A stretch of DNA of 64,000 bases from Fistulifera solaris. Taxonomy: Eukaryota > Bacillariophyta > Bacillariophyceae > Naviculales > Stauroneidaceae. Both the position numbers and the translations under genes were made by a program. Shown here one piece after another: positions 41,112-57,035 of this stretch (positions within the stretch are counted from its first letter, which is position 1; each line of letters starts with the position of its first letter). The stretch covers positions 868,001 through 932,000 of the forward strand of contig AP026172.1 in assembly GCA_030295235.1 (NCBI GenBank), given 5' to 3'. The notes under the pieces were generated by a model, which saw nothing but the letters and a program-made list of their open reading frames with translations, made no database searches and was not told where the DNA came from.

Positions 41112-42205
41112 TTCTTGCGTCTTATTAAAGTTAACGACCTCTCATGCACACGTAATCATGAAAGAGAACAAGAGAAGAAAAGAAATAATGAGGCTGTCAT
41201 TTGCTGCGCGCAATAAAAATGATGGCGAGGCCAAATAAAACCGGACTACCAGAGAACACCACAACATCCAGATTTTCTGGGTACTTGAAAACCAAACAAC
41301 CAGATTTTCTGTGTACAGTACTTGAAAACACCACATGCGACCTTTTGGGCACGCTGAGACAACACATGCCCAGATTATCTGTGGTAATGAAAACCCCAAC
41401 AAACCAGATTTTCTGGGGAAGGAAAAACACCGCAGACTCAGATTTTCTGGGTACGGGAATTTACCATGTTTTCTCAAAGATCCTCATTTTCATTCGCTGA
41501 TCTCCTTTCCAATATTTTTTTTTCTAAAAATCGACACATGATTGCCCGAACTCATTAAGTATTGCATTGCACGTAAGGGTTAGGGTCGTTAGACTATACC
41601 ATACTCAATAATTATTCATTCTGTCATTATGATCCCATCATTCAAAGCAATTATTTTTTCGTTCCTTAATTATTGAGACAAGATGCTTCAAGTCATAGTA
41701 GTAGGAGTATACTCCCTTGTGTCTGTGCAAGATGCGAAAGGCCCTACAAAGTAGAGAGAGGAATCAGGAATCTCGCACGAAACGGAAAATTTTAATGAAT
41801 TTTTAATCGTGGGAGGGCTGCTTCTCGACTCCGTCCAGTGGTGAAGTGACGGTGGGACTAATCTTTCTACTTGCATTTTTATAGTCAAATGTGCATGAGC
41901 GATTACTGTGAAAATTTAAACGCAGAACAAGTTTCCTTCTTGCACGTCCAGCACGCAGGAAGTCCTTGTCGCGCATGCCCACTTCGCGCGGCGACTTTTA
42001 GATGCGCAAGAGTACTATAAAATAAAATAATAATAATAGGTTGACATCCCTTTCTTCTTCGATGGACTACGAGCACGAAAGCAAGACGCGATCTGCTCTA
42101 TGAATACTTTGTATCGTATCGAAATAAGCAAACAAACATTGCTTGCTATCAATTCCATACGTCTTTCGTCCCATCCGCTTCGAATTATATACGAATCTTT
42201 TTAGA
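41112..42205. other. Divergent intergenic region with a degenerate tandem repeat
   Basis: About 1.1 kb between RTEL1 and the TPR gene. Contains the CAGATTTTCTG repeat listed separately and GGGTTAGGG at about 41577, which is too short to be telomeric. TATAAAATAAAATAATAATA at about 42017 is AT-rich and may be a TATA region for the TPR gene. Confidence 0.4.
41268..41451. repeat. Degenerate tandem array of CCAGATTTTCTGG elements
   Basis: Five copies of a near-palindromic CCAGATTTTCTGG core at about 41268, 41300, 41369, 41404 and 41439, spaced 32-69 bases. The flanks are often GGGTAC or GTGTAC plus TGAAAAC and an AACACC/AACAACC phrase. Half a kilobase upstream of the TPR gene and 160 bases upstream of RTEL1. 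The unit drifts in length, so it is an old or selected array. Confidence 0.6.
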
Positions 42206-47379: not shown

Positions 47380-48093
47380 TTATTTCAATGTTGCTCCGTC
47401 GTAGTTGCAACCTTCATGAACCACATCTTTCATATTCGCGGTACAGATACCCAGCTCAAGTGCCTTGGCCTCCATGGCATCGATGGTGGAGGGGTCGGGA
47501 CTTTGTGCTCGCGTGAAGAACCACAAACCTTGTCCATTTCCAACACAGGGTAAAAATCCGATTTTGCAATCTTCTCGCAACGTACACAGGGACGAATCTT
47601 CCGAGCAAGCTCCTTCCTGATCGGGTTGTCCGGCCGTGACGATGGCCCATTCGTAATCCGGATCAAAAGCCACCACCCAGTAGTCACCTCCCAAGGACGC
47701 TGGTACGTAACATGGTGCGACGCGAAGTTCTGCTGGTTTGCGGAATCGAAATCGCGGTGTCGCGCATAGCTTGAAGTCTCCATTCGGACTTGGTCCGTTA
47801 ACAGCGCCACTGTTGGCATAATTGCGGACTGTGATGGCTCGTCGACCCCATTGACGATCGCCTTCTTTGCTGTAGGTGGCAACGATGCAATACAAATCAT
47901 CTTCGGGTTGATACGTATTGGTTTGCTGGCGTTGTATGTACCAACTTTTCTCAATGTATTTGTCAACATCAAAGTCATCCGGTGTCTCGATCTTCGTGCA
48001 GCTATTCCCAAACAAGCGGGCGTTTGCCGGTGCACAGCAAAGAGCAGCGGAAAAGAGGAGAAAGTATGGTCTCATAAGGCCATTCATCATCAT
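47380..48093 (-). CDS. Secreted lipocalin-like protein
   Basis: 237 residues, intronless, no frameshift. Signal peptide MMMNGLMRPYFLLFSAALCC...ANA. The mature part is a lipocalin barrel: the first strand motif IEKSWYIQRQQTNTY corresponds to the family's G-x-W motif (here S-W), YCIVATYS is the second strand, and GGDYWVVAFDPDYEWAIVTAG matches the later Y-x-V-x-x-x-D-x-x-Y-x-x-x-x-V-x-G strands of ApoD/Blc-type lipocalins. LWFFTRAQ is the closing Arg-containing strand. About eight Cys residues suggest several disulfides, more than in Blc. Violaxanthin de-epoxidase is a related lipocalin, but its Cys-rich N-terminal domain is absent. Ligand unknown. Confidence 0.78.
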   Translation of the reverse strand: MMMNGLMRPYFLLFSAALCCAPANARLFGNSCTKIETPDDFDVDKYIEKSWYIQRQQTNTYQPEDDLYCIVATYSKEGDRQWGRRAITVRNYANSGAVNGPSPNGDFKLCATPRFRFRKPAELRVAPCYVPASLGGDYWVVAFDPDYEWAIVTAGQPDQEGACSEDSSLCTLREDCKIGFLPCVGNGQGLWFFTRAQSPDPSTIDAMEAKALELGICTANMKDVVHEGCNYDGATLK

Positions 48094-49155: not shown

Positions 49156-52144
49156 TCATTCAAATCCAGTGAAAACAGCATTGTCCTTCGCAGAGGGTGG
49201 TGAATAGTTATTGGCCTTGGTAATCTTCAATCGTTCGTTCTCCACGCCGACCGAAATAGTGTCGCCGTCGTAGTACTCGCCTGCCAAGATTCCGCGAGCA
49301 ATTACCGTTTCCAGTTCACGCTGAATAGTTCGCTTGAGAGGACGGGCACCGTAAACTGGATCAAAGCCAACATCTGCCAAAAGTCAATAGCCGCTTCGCT
49401 GACATGAATCTCGATTTGACGCTCCGCGAGGCGCTTCTCCACCCGTCTAACTTCCAACTTAACAATATTGCGAAGACTGCTCTTACCCAAGCTATTGAAA
49501 ATAATGTATTCGTCAATGCGATTCAAGAATTCAGGACGGAAATTTTCTTTCATCGCTTGCGTTACTCGTTCTTTCATTATAACTTGTGCGTCTGGCTCAT
49601 TGGATCCATTCAGATCAAGAATATCTTGACTTCCAATGTTACTTGTGAAAATGCAGATGGTGTTTCGAAAGTTCACCACGTTGCCTTTGGAATCAGTCAA
49701 GCGACCATCGTCCAGCATTTGTAGCATGACATTGTACACATCAGGGTGTGCCTTTTCCATTTCGTCAAACAGGATCACGGAATATGGTTTACGGCGAACG
49801 GCATCGGTTAACTGACCGCCCTCATCGTAACCTACGTATCCAGGTGGGGCACCAAGAAGGCGAGAAACTGTATGCTTTTCCATGTATTCCGACATGTCGA
49901 TGCGAATCAAAGCATCTTCACTGTCAAACATGAATTCAGCCAAGGCTTTGCAAAGCAGAGTCTTACCAACACCCGTCGGACCCAAAAAGATAAAAGACGC
50001 GATTGGCTTGTCGGGGTCATTGAGACCAGCTCGGGATCGTTGCACGGCCTCTGTTACGGCCTCGACGGCTTCTTCTTGGCCGACGACACGATTCTTTAGC
50101 TTTTCGCCCATGGTCAAAATACGATCTTTCTCGGTTTCTAACAATTTACCGGGAGGGATTCCGGTCCAAACAGCCACGACCGCCGCAATATCGTCGGCAA
50201 CGACTTCGTCGCGAAGCATCTTTTCGCGGTTGTTCATGTCAGATTCCGTTTCCATGGCATCCAATTGCGCCAGTTCCTCCTCTAAAGGCGGAAGGGCCGA
50301 GAACTTCAATTCAGCCGCCTTGTTCAAATCATACTCGCGTTCCGCTTTTTCGATCTCAAACTTTATACCTTGAATCTTTTCTTTCAACTCGTTAAGGCGA
50401 TTTACACCACCTTTCTCAGCCATCCAACGAGCGGTCAAGTCCTGCTGTTCCTTTTGAAGCTGAAGAAGCTCCTCATCCAACTTGGCCAGACGGTACGACT
50501 CTTCTGGCGTCGAAGATCCATCTTTTTCAAAATCGGAGCGCAACGATAGCCGTTCCATTTCCAATTGAATAATGCGGCGATCAATTTCATCCAAGATCAC
50601 GGGCTTGCTGGTGATTTCATTTTTGAGTTTTGCACAGGCTTCGTCGACAAGATCAATAGCCTTGTCGGGCAGAAAACGGTCCGGGATGTACCGATGACTA
50701 AGTTTGGCCGCCGCAAGTAAGGCTTCATCACGGATGCGAATACCGTGGTGCAATTCGTAACGTGGTTTAAGACCACGTAAAATACTGACAGTGTCTTCAG
50801 GGGTTGGCTGATCAATCATAACTTGTTGAAACCGACGTTCCAAAGCCTTATCCTTCTCAATGTATTTTCGATACTCGTTCACTGTAGTCGCACCGATGCA
50901 ACGCAATTGTCCTCGAGCCAAGGCTGGCTTCAAGAGATTACTGGCATCCATGGATCCCTGTGCGGACCCAGCGCCGACAACAGTATGCATTTCGTCAATA
51001 AACAGAATAATCTCTCCATCACTCTTCATGACTTCCTCGAGAACGGCTTTGAGTCGCTCCTCAAATTCACCACGCATCGTGGCACCAGCTACCAATGCTC
51101 CGAGGTCGAGACCAATTAGACGACTGCCTTTCAAACTCTCCGGAACGTCTCCGTCGACGATACGCTGGGCAATACCCTCCGCAACAGCCGTCTTTCCAAC
51201 TCCAGGGTCTCCAATCAGCACAGGATTGTTCTTGGTTCGTCGCGATAGTATTTGAATAGCACGTCGGATTTCGTCATCACGACCGATCACTGGGTCTAGT
51301 TTGCCTTCACGTGCTCGTTCGGTGAAATCAATGCCATATTTGTTTAGTGCATCGTACATATTCTCTGCACTTCGCGAGATGACGGGCCCCGACTTTTCAC
51401 GCATGCCTTTGACAATAGTAAGCAAGTCCTGGTATTTAACATTTTGCTTGAATAGAGCATCGCGGGTAAAGAGGGAATCTTCCTTGGCGAGCGCCAGCAA
51501 GAGTCCTTCCGACGACACGAATGAATCCTGTGAAACATAAAAGCAATGGGAATGAGTCAAGGAGTAGATACGACTACCATAGCATCTCCTGAATCATCAC
51601 TTACACCTAGTACACTCTTTACTTGCGTCGCACCGTCCAACACGGCTTGCAACGATCGTCCCATGGTCTTTTGTGCACCGGAATCCGCACTGACCTTGGC
51701 CTGTCTCGCCAAAAAGTCGTCAAGTTCTCGACGCAAGTCGCTCACGTTACATTGAGCTTGCGTCAGAATGCGTTCCACAACCTTGCGCGCCGCTTCCGCG
51801 TCGTCACCGGCGTTGTGTTTTTTGGGATTGAGCAGTAAATCCAGCATCAAAGGTGCTTCAACATTCGTCGATTGATGAAATTCGGCGGCTTTAGTCAAAC
51901 TCGCGATCGCACTCCAGGCCGCGTCAGTGTATTTGGCTTGATTAAAGTCATCAGCAGCCATCTGGAGTCTAGTAGAGAGACGATAGGGTTTGCTTGTCAA
52001 GAACAAAGAGGGAGACAAAGTGTTTGGCGATCGAGAAATAGTCGACGAAGGCACGAGTGCGGCAGGACAAAAGGCATTCGTATGTTGCCATGATGTCGAC
52101 GCAATACTTAAAAGAATAACAACTGCGCTATTTCCAATCTTCAT
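49156..52144 (-). CDS. CLPB: Plastid-targeted ClpB/Hsp100 disaggregase, one intron, one apparent frameshift
   Basis: Exons 52144..51605 and 51527..49156; donor GTAAGT, acceptor CACAG. About 970 residues after adding one T (plus-strand A4 at 49379-49382), which joins AIDFL to [20 protein letters not shown]. The N-terminus is a signal peptide ending TNA|FCPAA followed by a Ser/Arg transit-like stretch, so plastid import is predicted. The Clp N-domain precedes NBD1 (Walker [10 protein letters not shown]; Walker [10 protein letters not shown]), a ClpB middle domain coiled coil (about 50200-50550), and NBD2 ([34 protein letters not shown]; sensor TSNIGSQ; arginine finger region [11 protein letters not shown]). 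ClpB works with Hsp70 to dissolve protein aggregates under stress. The middle domain separates it from ClpC. Confidence 0.92.
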
Positions 52145-52974
52145 GCTTGTCTGTTTGAGCGCAGCAACAGAAGAATGAAAGGAATACGATTGATAATTAC
52201 CACTTGTCGTTCAAAAAGACGCAAAGGGAAAAATAATGAGCTATTTCGTTGCTTTCGTGTTTCGGGTTCGCTTGACATCGCTTCGTTTCGCCATCGAACG
52301 CAGTGCGCGCGTTCAACAAAACAAGGTATAGTACCTTTGAAACTTGATAACGGTCATAATTTTGCTTTGTAATTTGTACTGAAATAAATCCAATATATGA
52401 CAAAATGAAACAAAAATGGAAATTTCAGTCGAATGTCAAAATTACATTCTGACTTTAAGAAACGTAGGAATAAATATTAGGATTATCTTCAGCAAAACTC
52501 TTGACACCTGACACGTGGAACGTTTTCCGATGATTGCGCGACGTAATTCCGACAATGGCGCCTTCCTTCATTGCGTGAAACTTGGCCTTCAATTTAAAAC
52601 TGCCTTGTCATCCTGTATCAAAGAATGATATTTGCTCAGAACGATTCACAATTAGTGAGCTCGCGATGTTCAAAGGAAGGTCACACCGCTTAATAGCGAC
52701 GTTACATCGTCAAGGAGAACGTCGATGGTCGATGTGTCGAAAATATACAACAATTTGCAGCTGCAAAAAAAAGTGATTATCCAATTGCGATTGCGCATCA
52801 CTACGTTGAACGAAATATTTCGAGGAAGTGATGATGGTGCAAACATTGCGTGGAACTGATCTGATCGGACGAAACTAAAAGGAAGGATTTGGCTTGCAGT
52901 TCACGAAAGGTGCAGCGCCTACTTTTGCCTAAAGATTATTATCGCCTAAAATGCTGCTTGAACCCTAAGATGGC
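52145..52974. other. Intergenic region
   Basis: 830 bases upstream of CLPB and downstream of the repeat protein. AT-rich; no repeat of the window's families and no gene seen. Part of it should be the CLPB promoter. Confidence 0.4.
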
Positions 52975-54903
52975 CTACATGCGACGGCTTCCCGAATCGG
53001 CCGAGTCCTTGCTGGCACTGTCGAGATGACGGCGACTTCCCGAATCTGCCGAGTGCTTGCTGGCACTGTCGAGGTGACGGCGACTTCCCGAATCTGCCGA
53101 GTCGTTGCTGGCACTGTCGAGGTGACGGCGACTTCCCGAATCGGCCGAGTCCTTGCTGGCACTGTCGAGGTGACGGCGACTTCCCGAATCGGCCGAGTCG
53201 TTGCTGGCACTGTCGAGATGACGGCGACTTCCCGAATCGGCCGAGTCCTTGCTGGCACTGTCGAGGTGACGGCGACTTCCCGAATCGGCCGAGTCGTTGC
53301 TGGCACTGTCGAGATGACGGCGGCTTCCCGAATCGGCCGAGTCCTTGCTGGCACTGTCGAGATGACGGCGACTTCCCGAATCGGCCGAGTCGTTGCTGGC
53401 ACTGTCGAGGTGACGGCGACTTCCCGAATCTGCCGAGTCCTTGCTGGCACTGTCGAGGTGACGGCGACTTCCCGAATCGGCCGAGTCCTTGCTGGCACTG
53501 TCGAGGTGACGGCGGCTTCCCGAATCGGCCGAGTCGTTGCTGGCACTGTCGAGGTGACGGCGACTTCCCGAATCTGCCGAGTCGTTGCTGGCACTGTCGA
53601 GGTGACGGCGACTCCCCGAATCGGCCGAGTCGTTGCTGGCACTGTCAAGGTGACGGCGACTTCCCGAATCGGCCGAGTCGTTGCTGGCACTGTCGAGGTG
53701 ACGGCGACTTCCCGAATCTGCCGAGTCGTTGCTGGCACTGTCGAGGTGACGGCGACTTCCCGAATCGGCCGAGTCCTTGCTGGCACTGTCGAGATGACGG
53801 CGACTTCCCGAATCGGCCGAGTCGTTGCTGGCACTGTCGAGGTGACGGCGACTTCCCGAATCTGCCGAGTCCTTGCTGGCACTGTCGAGGTGACGGCGAC
53901 TTCCCGAATCGGCCGAGTCGTTGCTGGCACTGTCGAGGTGACGGCGACTTCCCGAATCGGCCGAGTCGTTGCTGGCACTGTCGAGGTGACGGCGACTTCC
54001 CGAATCTGCCGAGTGCTTGCTGGCACTGTCGAGGTGACGGCGGCTTCCCGAATCGGCCGAGTCGTTGCTGGCACTGTCGAGGTGACGGCGACTTCCCGAA
54101 TCGGCCGAGTCGTTGCTGGCACTGTCGAGGTGACGGCGACTTCCCGAATCTGCCGAGTGCTTGCTGGCACTGTCGAGGTGACGGCGGCTTCCCGAATCGG
54201 CCGAGTCGTTGCTGGCACTGTCGAGGTGACGGCGACTTCCCGAATCGGCCGAGTCGTTGCTGGCACTGTCGAGGTGACGGCGACTTCCCGAATCGGCCGA
54301 GTCGTTGCTGGCACTGTCGAGGTGACGGCGGCTTCCCGAATCGGCCGAGTCCTTGCTGGCACTGTCGAGGTGACGGCGACTTCCCGAATCGGCCGAGTCG
54401 TTGCTGGCACTGTCGAGGTGACGGCGACTTCCCGAATCTGCCGAGTCCTTGCTGGCACTGTCGAGGTGACGGCGACTTCCCGAATCTGCCGAGTCGTTGC
54501 TGGCACTGTCGAGGTGACGGCGACTTCCCGAATCGGCCGAGTCGTTGCTGGCACTGTCGAGGTGACGGCGACTTCCCGAATCTGCCGAGTCCTTGCTGGC
54601 ACTGTCGAGGTGACGGCGACTTCCCGAATCGGCCGAGTCGTTGCTGGCACTGTTGAGGTGACGGCGACTTCCCGAATCTGCCGAGTCGTTGCTGGCACTG
54701 TCGAGGTGACGGCGACTTCCCGAATCGGCCGTGTCGTTGCTGGCACTGTCGAGATGACGGCGGCTTCCCGAATCGGCCGATTTCTTAGAGTCGTTGCTTG
54801 CCAAGAAACGCTTTCGCAACATCTGGTTGCCGCTTGGAATCTCACTTGAGCTTCCGCACGTCAAAGAGACGAGGAAGAAGAGGGTTGCAGTTGGGAACTT
54901 CAT
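52975..54903 (-). CDS. Secreted tandem-repeat protein, 37 copies of a 16-residue RXL-containing unit
   Basis: 642 residues. Signal peptide MKFPTATLFFLVSLTCG, a 32-residue lead ending in a degenerate first unit (RFLASNDSKKSADSGSRR), then 37 units DSASNDSADSGSRRHL-like (counted HLDSASNDSADSGSRR), and a terminal Met. Variation is confined almost wholly to two positions: SNDS (most), SKDS and SKHS (three). The unit is Ser/Asp-rich with RRHL once each. R-x-L is the reported processing motif of several diatom silica-associated proteins, so cleavage into many near-identical acidic-Ser peptides is an inference. Each unit has possible phosphorylation sites. The same DNA is open in two other frames without a signal peptide. 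No known family. The copy number may be collapsed or expanded by assembly. Confidence 0.75.
   Translation of the reverse strand: MKFPTATLFFLVSLTCGSSSEIPSGNQMLRKRFLASNDSKKSADSGSRRHLDSASNDTADSGSRRHLDSASNDSADSGSRRHLNSASNDSADSGSRRHLDSASKDSADSGSRRHLDSASNDSADSGSRRHLDSASNDSADSGSRRHLDSASKDSADSGSRRHLDSASNDSADSGSRRHLDSASKDSADSGSRRHLDSASNDSADSGSRRHLDSASNDSADSGSRRHLDSASNDSADSGSRRHLDSASKHSADSGSRRHLDSASNDSADSGSRRHLDSASNDSADSGSRRHLDSASKHSADSGSRRHLDSASNDSADSGSRRHLDSASNDSADSGSRRHLDSASKDSADSGSRRHLDSASNDSADSGSRRHLDSASKDSADSGSRRHLDSASNDSADSGSRRHLDSASNDSADSGSRRHLDSASNDSADSGSRRHLDSASNDSADSGSRRHLDSASNDSADSGSRRHLDSASKDSADSGSRRHLDSASKDSADSGSRRHLDSASNDSADSGSRRHLDSASKDSADSGSRRHLDSASNDSADSGSRRHLDSASKDSADSGSRRHLDSASNDSADSGSRRHLDSASKDSADSGSRRHLDSASNDSADSGSRRHLDSASKHSADSGSRRHLDSASKDSADSGSRRM
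52981..54756. repeat. Coding minisatellite, 37 x 48 bp
   Basis: Perfectly phased 48-base units (GACGGCGACTTCCCGAATC... on the plus strand) differing by a few recurring substitutions (GGCCGAG/TGCCGAG, CGTTG/CCTTG/GCTTG, GAGGT/GAGAT). No unit is interrupted. High identity with shuffled variants suggests recent unequal exchange. Confidence 0.95.
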
Positions 54904-56435: not shown

Positions 56436-57035
56436 TTAGTTCTGATCATCGGTGCTGTCATGTGCAATATCATCTGCGCTATCGGTGTCGTTATTATGCG
56501 TTTCAATCATCGCGTATCCACTTTCGCAACCCGTGGCGTTCAACACAATTTTCAAAAACGCCCTTTCACAGCCACTGAAATTTATGTTGTTGCCCACGCC
56601 CGTGATTTCGCAACCACTCCTATCCGTTTCGATTACCATTGATCCATGGTTGCAGTTACTGATGTTCATTTCGATTTCGAGAACTACGTCGGTGTGGTTA
56701 ATCACAATTGTCTCGTCATCAGCACTATCGGAATCGCGGTACAGGACGTTGTTCGAATCGCTGTCGTCGCTCTTATCGTCGGAGGAATTTGCGTTATGTT
56801 GAAGGCGACGACCAAAAGAGTGTACAATTGTCGACAAGCGGTCAAACGGGGCGATGCCCACGCTTTCTAGCTCGAACCGGTGCTTTCTTAAAAGCGAACT
56901 CGAATGAGGGCTCAGGTTTGCATGCGTCGGTTCATCTAGATCGCTTTTGACCTCGTGGTTGGGCAATGAAGCGAGGACCAAGAACGATTCTTTCAGAAAC
57001 GCAGACACGAAAAGACAAAGTAAACGGCAATTCAT
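56436..57035 (-). CDS. Secreted Asp/Ser/Asn-rich protein of unknown function
   Basis: 199 residues, intronless. N-terminus MNCRLLCLFVSAFLKESFLVLAS is a signal peptide. A basic region ends in FGRRLQHN, an R-x-L motif preceded by Arg like that in the neighbouring repeat protein. An acidic linker (SSDDKSDDSDSNN, DSDSADDE) follows. The C-terminal part has alternating hydrophobic strands, five Cys residues and several N-x-S/T sequons (NHT, NIS, NFS, NAT), then another acidic tail (DTDSADDIAHDSTDD). The strands VVLEIEMNISNC and FLKIVLNATGC look like a repeated beta element. No family recognised. Same strand and similar architecture as the 52975 gene; a related cell-surface role is inferred. Confidence 0.6.
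   Translation of the reverse strand: MNCRLLCLFVSAFLKESFLVLASLPNHEVKSDLDEPTHANLSPHSSSLLRKHRFELESVGIAPFDRLSTIVHSFGRRLQHNANSSDDKSDDSDSNNVLYRDSDSADDETIVINHTDVVLEIEMNISNCNHGSMVIETDRSGCEITGVGNNINFSGCERAFLKIVLNATGCESGYAMIETHNNDTDSADDIAHDSTDDQN

Follow-up and report, generated by a model that had tools for sequence, protein, structure and literature searches.

A minus-strand gene of the pennate diatom Fistulifera solaris encodes a putative signal peptide, a short pro-region, and 38 tandem units rich in Ser and Asp, and the tripeptide R-x-L closes every internal unit both here and in the other known members of its gene family. The open reading frame, the repeat, the four-gene family, the conservation of frame, the R-x-L at internal unit ends, and the charge arithmetic are all observed. 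We infer secretion, cleavage, trimming, phosphorylation, and a role in silica, and we lean toward a reading in which the gene specifies a secreted precursor polyprotein that would be processed at R-x-L and then trimmed and phosphorylated to acidic silica-forming peptides. By analogy with diatom silica proteins, a single precursor may in this way supply dozens of small acidic peptides for the glass cell wall.

How is the gene built? The window, a stretch of 64,000 nucleotides (G000:C20:868001-932000) from a 51.7-Mb, 61-contig assembly, holds it as one single open frame that runs from ATG to stop and maps to G000:C20:920978-922903; its parts are listed in Table 1. The original prediction had placed a repeat here, and this was borne out, on the minus strand, by the 642-residue frame and by TRF, which reported a 48-bp period at 52988-54780 (37.4 copies, 95% matches, score 3271). 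R-x-L tripeptides occur 38 times in the frame; 2000 composition-shuffled versions averaged 5.0 of them and reached 12 at most. Where the prediction had 37 exactly phased 16-residue units ending in RRHL, the 37 RRHL ends are present, but the units number 38: a first one of 17 residues, 36 of 16 residues, and a last one of 15 residues that reaches RRM at the stop. Nor is variation limited to SNDS, SKDS, and SKHS, as had been claimed. Besides 21 SNDS, 10 SKDS, and 3 SKHS units, the 36 sixteen-residue units include one with D changed to N at position 1 and one with S changed to T (NDT), and the first unit is aberrant. The array shows little if any higher-order structure: no run of more than 4 unit haplotypes recurs, and recurring runs of at least 4 turned up in 3.1% of 5000 shuffles. 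At the N-terminus, K2 is followed by a hydrophobic stretch whose 11 residues average 2.12 on the Kyte-Doolittle scale, a matter of sequence shape only. Hydropathy and head conservation are consistent with the signal peptide and the secretion that had been predicted, and the product of the window gene is probably secreted.

Table 1. The repeat gene, its parts, and its upstream neighbor, in positions of the window
Feature	Position	Strand	Remarks
Whole coding ORF	52975..54903	-	642 aa + stop; genome match on C20
Signal-peptide-like N-terminus, residues ~1-19 (MKFPTATLFFLVSLTCGSS)	54847..54903	-	Hydropathy; 4/4 aligned heads
Short pro-region, residues 20-34, ending MLRKRFL; R-x-L is RFL at 54802-54810	54802..54846	-	
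First unit, aberrant, 17 residues, ASNDSKKSADSGSRRHL	54751..54801	-	
36 exact 16-residue units, consensus DSASNDSADSGSRRHL, 15 nucleotide haplotypes	53023..54750	-	
Terminal unit, 15 residues, DSASKDSADSGSRRM, without R-x-L; no unit after it	52978..53022	-	
Upstream neighbor, 199 aa, signal-peptide-like, D/S-rich	56436..57035	-	RRL at residues 76-78, ~56802-56810

Does the gene have relatives in the same genome? Searches with three queries (the whole protein, the C6 piece, and the head), which also gave antisense echoes of the family arrays, place it in a family of at least four genes: the window gene on contig C20, its homeolog at C19:1016832-1017601, and a second pair on C6 (2057667-2058992) and C5 (2174890-2176254). 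Four is a lower bound, because the genome search scores only the best candidates. We take F. solaris to be allodiploid, which fits the alignable contig pairs C19/C20 and C5/C6, the sole pairs aligned. Units measure 16 residues in C20 and C19 and mostly 24 residues, ending SGSRRNL, in C6 and C5, with three 26-residue units in C5 in addition; the unit of the C6/C5 pair reads ASASAS[N/K]DS[V/A]DSPSTSNSGSRRNL. Invariant in all four aligned heads are MKFxT...FLxSLT and MLRKR, and the R-x-L after MLRKR reads RFL, RVL, and RHL in the three heads that are readable through. The C19 gene has its pre-pro region in one frame and its repeats in another, the shift falling within a T run beside the end of the pro-region; the repeat frame remains open over 13 R-x-L ends and reaches a terminal RRI, and its stop falls at the matching place in the unit. 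Either a recent lesion or a fault of the assembly may account for this frame break.

A degenerate GSRR[H/N]L pattern matched the genome 86 times, compared with 10 times for a reversed-pattern control, and 78 of the 86 matches fall within the four family genes. The other 8 are scattered, and three of them were inspected: the sites on C3 and C4 are antisense to a long ORF found at both loci, and the site at C6:1415885 has no ORF of more than 150 aa nearby. Weak matches on C34, C14, and C3 with the C6 query (E 0.17-1.8) and on C7 with the whole-protein query (E 0.2) were dismissed by eye from the ORFs present there.

Which reading frame of the array codes for protein? The array also stays open in two further long frames, 53026-54849 on the plus strand (607 aa) and 52965-54845 on the minus strand (626 aa). 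Because one other frame per strand is thus open, we put the sense frame to a synonymy test, comparing C20 with C19 (36 and 12 units) and C6 with C5 (15 and 11 units, with the three 26-residue C5 units omitted). In the sense frame, every one of the six fixed differences between homeologs, two from C20/C19 and four from C6/C5, is synonymous, against an expectation of 28-29%; by arithmetic, the chance of such an outcome is ~5 in 10,000. Four of the remaining five frames score 0/6. The fifth, an antisense frame, scores 5/6 but is interrupted by 37 TGA stops within the array of C20, and in both the 607-aa and the 626-aa open frames the fixed differences are non-synonymous. Polymorphic sites cannot tell the sense frame from this antisense frame, because 15/24 are synonymous in the one and 17/24 in the other, and the synonymy counts are only partly independent, since tandem units homogenize. 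Across the C5 array (+ strand) a 434-aa antisense ORF is open, with units RRLPELEVEGLS[T/A]ESLLALALA; the matching C20 frame has stops throughout the array.

These results bear on the possibility that the array is an expanded coding minisatellite without much function, a near-telomere 48-bp repeat that is open in several frames by chance. Both homeologous contigs end in TTAGGG repeats (C20:936402-937901; C19:1035147-1036646), with the C20 gene ~15 kb and the C19 gene ~19 kb from the telomere-like end, and the number of R-x-L unit ends differs between the homeologs (37 in C20, 13 in C19). Chance expansion would accommodate this location and this difference in copy number, as well as the two extra open frames and the frame break in the C19 copy, but it is hard to square with six synonymous differences out of six, with a competing antisense frame full of stops in C20, with a conserved pre-pro region, and with C6/C5 paralogs that hold the same protein plan in a different DNA unit. 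We therefore regard it as very unlikely.

How strictly is R-x-L kept at the unit ends? It is present at all 81 internal ends of the family (37 in C20, 13 in C19, 16 in C6, and 15 in C5), with H, Q, or N as its middle residue. The whole tail is RRHL at 37/37 ends in the window gene and at 12 of 13 in C19, where the remaining one is RRQL; in C5 and C6, RRNL accounts for 29 of 31 internal ends, and the other two, both in C6, read HRNL. The count of 81/81 is no artefact of a cutting pattern that itself contains R-x-L, because the spacings between unit ends (16-17 residues in C20, 16 in C19, 22-24 in C6, and 22-26 in C5) show no skipped unit. R-x-L thus ends both the pro-region, in the three readable heads, and each internal repeat, and it is found in none of the four terminal units, which end in RRM, RRI, RRRQ, and RRE. 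Invariance by itself does not mark out the motif, since SGS and other positions are equally invariant (10 of 16 positions in 48 sixteen-residue units and 21 of 24 in 26 twenty-four-residue units), and equal invariance across the unit is expected if tandem units are homogenized. What marks out R-x-L is its recurrence at the pro-region end, its changed neighbors, and its absence at the terminal ends, a natural control that amounts to two to four cases because homeologs are not independent.

The same pattern helps to weigh whether the protein might be secreted but uncut, remaining whole, with its Ser/Asp/Arg repeats in place, as a disordered component of the cell coat, of mucilage, or of an adhesive. 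Secreted low-complexity repeat proteins are common in coats, mucilage, and adhesives; cleavage is something we infer, and much of the unit is invariant, not R-x-L alone. However, R-x-L also closes the pro-region and every one of the internal ends and is missing precisely from the terminal units, where a cut would be needless, which a coat role alone does not predict. An uncut protein is, in our judgment, unlikely.

If the precursor is cut, is R-x-L or the dibasic RR the signal? A Kex2/furin-like convertase could cut at RR and release secreted signaling or pheromone-like peptides, and RR is indeed kept at 79/81 internal ends of the family (37/37 in the window gene alone) and in all four terminal units. 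Yet the dibasic site does not stand between all units family-wide, and Leu ends every internal unit despite codon variation (CTC/CTT/CTA). The two C6 units without RR, which read HRNL, still have R-x-L, so R-x-L is held more strictly than RR. We know of no diatom peptide pheromone of the RR-cut repeat type, which also counts against a convertase. The layout is shared with fungal KEX2-processed repeat proteins (KEPs), in which a signal peptide precedes repeats split by Kex2 sites and a secreted tandem-repeat precursor gives many near-identical peptides (PMC7329392); KEPs differ in being cut at KR, RR, or KK, in being fungal, and in having no silica link. R-x-L, moreover, is a motif known from diatom silica proteins (PMC4557024, PMC5647440), and we consider processing at RR rather improbable.

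We return to R-x-L processing, for which diatoms offer precedents. Among the proteins reported to carry R-x-L motifs where repeats end are frustulins, cingulins, and silacidins, and the repeats of silaffin-1 (Sil1p) end in RRIL or RRNL, tails that the mature peptides are without (PMC4557024). The original prediction treated cutting after R-x-L as established for several diatom precursors of the silaffin/cingulin type. Its premise stands as far as the motif at repeat ends and the tails absent from mature Sil1p are concerned (PMC4557024), but cleavage is unproven: as of 2017, that R-x-L is a cleavage site was described as still to be proven, known proteins included (PMC5647440). Candidates put forward for the cutting enzyme are secreted proteases that respond to silicon (PMC5501833).

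How would such a precursor work? The signal peptide would bring it into the ER, and an endopeptidase, assumed to act on R-x-L motifs, would cut behind the pro-region (RKRFL) and behind every RRHL. The RRHL tails would then be trimmed off, on the model of the mature silaffin-1 peptides of Cylindrotheca fusiformis, and the output would be some 38 Ser/Asp peptides, mostly of 12 residues, DSAS[N/K]DSADSGS, whose serines would be phosphorylated in the secretory pathway. Secretory-pathway kinases favor serines with D, E, or S at +2, and 149 of the 194 serines of C20 have this context (shuffled mean 91, maximum 110, 1000 shuffles). Cutting would also act as a charge switch, in that a unit near uncharged with RRHL at pH 5.5 would, for most unit types, be acidic without it, and the resulting acidic phosphopeptides would be the polyanion partner of long-chain polyamines in silica formation, by analogy with silacidins.

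The charge arithmetic can be made explicit. At pH 5.5, the N-type unit has a calculated charge of -0.14 whole and -2.9 minus RRHL; after removal of RRHL, the K type stands at -1.9 and the KH (SKHS) type at -0.18, and the C6 unit has +0.07 whole and -1.93 minus RRNL. Without its first 19 residues, the precursor has a calculated charge of +18.8 at pH 5.5 and of -12 at pH 7, so the uncut chain is weakly basic, not exactly neutral, at pH 5.5. The switch is accordingly imperfect, both on account of this residual charge and because trimmed SKHS units are barely acidic. The proposed release of dozens of near-identical acidic, phosphorylatable peptides therefore needs an exception for the three SKHS units; otherwise, the R-x-L junctions and the Ser/Asp-rich composition argue for it. 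The companion claim, that SKDS units set the Lys content, holds for the window gene and does not extend to the family. At the N/K position, the counts of N and K are 24 and 14 in C20, 1 and 13 in C19 (nearly all K), 17 and 0 in C6, and 13 and 3 in C5; because these ratios differ among the four genes, Lys content drifts.

More tentatively, the family may be an independently evolved silacidin-like system of this pennate diatom, in which the RRxL tail both marks the cut and neutralizes the acidic peptide until the cut is made, with dose and Lys content tuned by tandem copy number and by an N/K switch that is set differently in the homeologs. If this were true, the polyanion would appear only after processing.

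Which known silica protein does the gene resemble most? Silacidins are phosphorylated acidic peptides that derive from a repetitive precursor and promote silica formation with polyamines (PMC4557024, PMC11733937). The precursor, from Thalassiosira pseudonana and other centrics, is likewise repetitive and has a signal peptide (PMC5501833), and its R-x-L repeat ends yield small Ser-rich acidic peptides (PMC4557024, PMC11733937). As described, however, silacidin peptides are ~25 residues long and contain both Glu and Asp, whereas those predicted here are mostly of 12 residues, with Asp but without Glu, and come with an RRHL or RRNL tail. Judged from sequence, the N and K types fit an acidic Ser-rich peptide of this sort, and the three SKHS units do not. 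Sil1p of C. fusiformis shares the order of signal peptide, R-x-L, and tandem units ending in RRIL/RRNL tails absent from the mature peptides; the C6/C5 paralogs use RRNL, a Sil1p tail itself, and C20/C19 have the same form with another middle residue. Unlike Sil1p, whose repeats are described as strongly basic, with lysine clusters and with Lys methylated or polyamine-bearing (PMC4557024), the trimmed units here are mostly acidic and the repeats are not Lys-rich and basic. The KXXK motif occurs 0 times in the four family genes, which have at most 3 Lys per 14 residues, and three copies of R5 gave no match in the genome in a search without a positive control. Lysine clusters such as pentalysine are reported to help target silaffins to silica (PMC9650480). 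Because such clusters are absent here, the window gene should not be filed as a silaffin, and the best functional analogue is silacidin, not silaffin or cingulin.

Two further comparisons can be drawn. Gene 1401909 of Entomoneis vertebralis, also a diatom with a raphe, is repetitive, Ser-rich, and silacidin-like without silacidin similarity, but its repeat is SEV.S.SE, with PT and K...K motifs, and R-x-L units are not described in that account (PMC12533330). SAPs have a signal peptide followed by an N-terminal R-x-L, as well as Ser-rich stretches; their group, in contrast, has transmembrane domains, and a tandem polyprotein layout is not part of its description. On our best reading, the window gene has an R-x-L-precursor architecture and files as a variant of the R-x-L-processed repeat precursors of the silaffin-1/silacidin kind. 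It would, again on our best reading, work most like silacidin, a likeness of architecture and composition, not of proven homology.

How new is such a gene? The repeat protein has no relatives in Pfam or among PDB sequences, and although 25 stretches in bacterial/archaeal genome contigs and 2 in IMG/VR viral contigs fit the pattern, none is a relative. The original statement that no described family has this unit agrees with these scans, which say little because the collections hold few or no diatom sequences. Nor is the gene described in the titles and abstract openings of Fistulifera silaffin, frustule-protein, proteome, and silica literature among the matches listed; a 2014 F. solaris frustule-protein paper (cited in PMC4712521) may name it. 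The silacidin-like idea is not wholly new, since a Ser-repeat candidate with another motif has been proposed in Entomoneis (PMC12533330). P. tricornutum and F. cylindrus, both pennates, are reported to have yielded no silacidin homologue (PMC5649158), and a pennate precursor of acidic R-x-L peptides would go some way toward filling this gap. With 37 internal R-x-L ends, paralogs that carry another tail, and two units without RR, the family also offers an unusually clean substrate for the question of R-x-L cleavage, and experiments are practical because F. solaris is transformable and has already been used for cell-wall display (PMC4712521). That the host is a diatom is supported by 23 matches to the silicon-transporter family PF03842 that pass the Pfam cut-off, on C15, C16, C23, C24, C27, and C29. 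Two primers published for DOAP1 of F. solaris (PMC4113804) also have exact matches, at C40:218839-218858 and C40:218218-218239, the second on C41 as well, and the reversed patterns match nowhere; this points to F. solaris, a raphid pennate, or to a strain nearly identical to it.

What surrounds the repeat gene? The 199-aa upstream neighbor (Table 1) has no match in Pfam, even with E allowed up to 1. Its C19 homeolog is 77% identical, and by eye the RRL is RHL there, although adjacent residues differ. A functional link with the repeat gene is possible. The lone R-x-L is weak evidence, because the motif also occurs in several other, unrelated ORFs of the window. At 49302-52144 on the minus strand lies an ORF for a ClpB/HSP100-type AAA+ chaperone (Pfam AAA_2, AAA_lid_9, and ClpB_D2-small). 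The ORF preceding it has an N-terminus (...TNAFCPA...) that we take to resemble a diatom plastid-targeting presequence, and the two are perhaps one plastid chaperone gene. A 237-aa ORF at 47380-48093, also on the minus strand, has a signal-peptide-like start and may be lipocalin-like. At 41254-41451, two tandem repeats, both short and imperfect (32-34 bp; 1.9 and 2.4 copies), carry CCAGATTTTCTGG.
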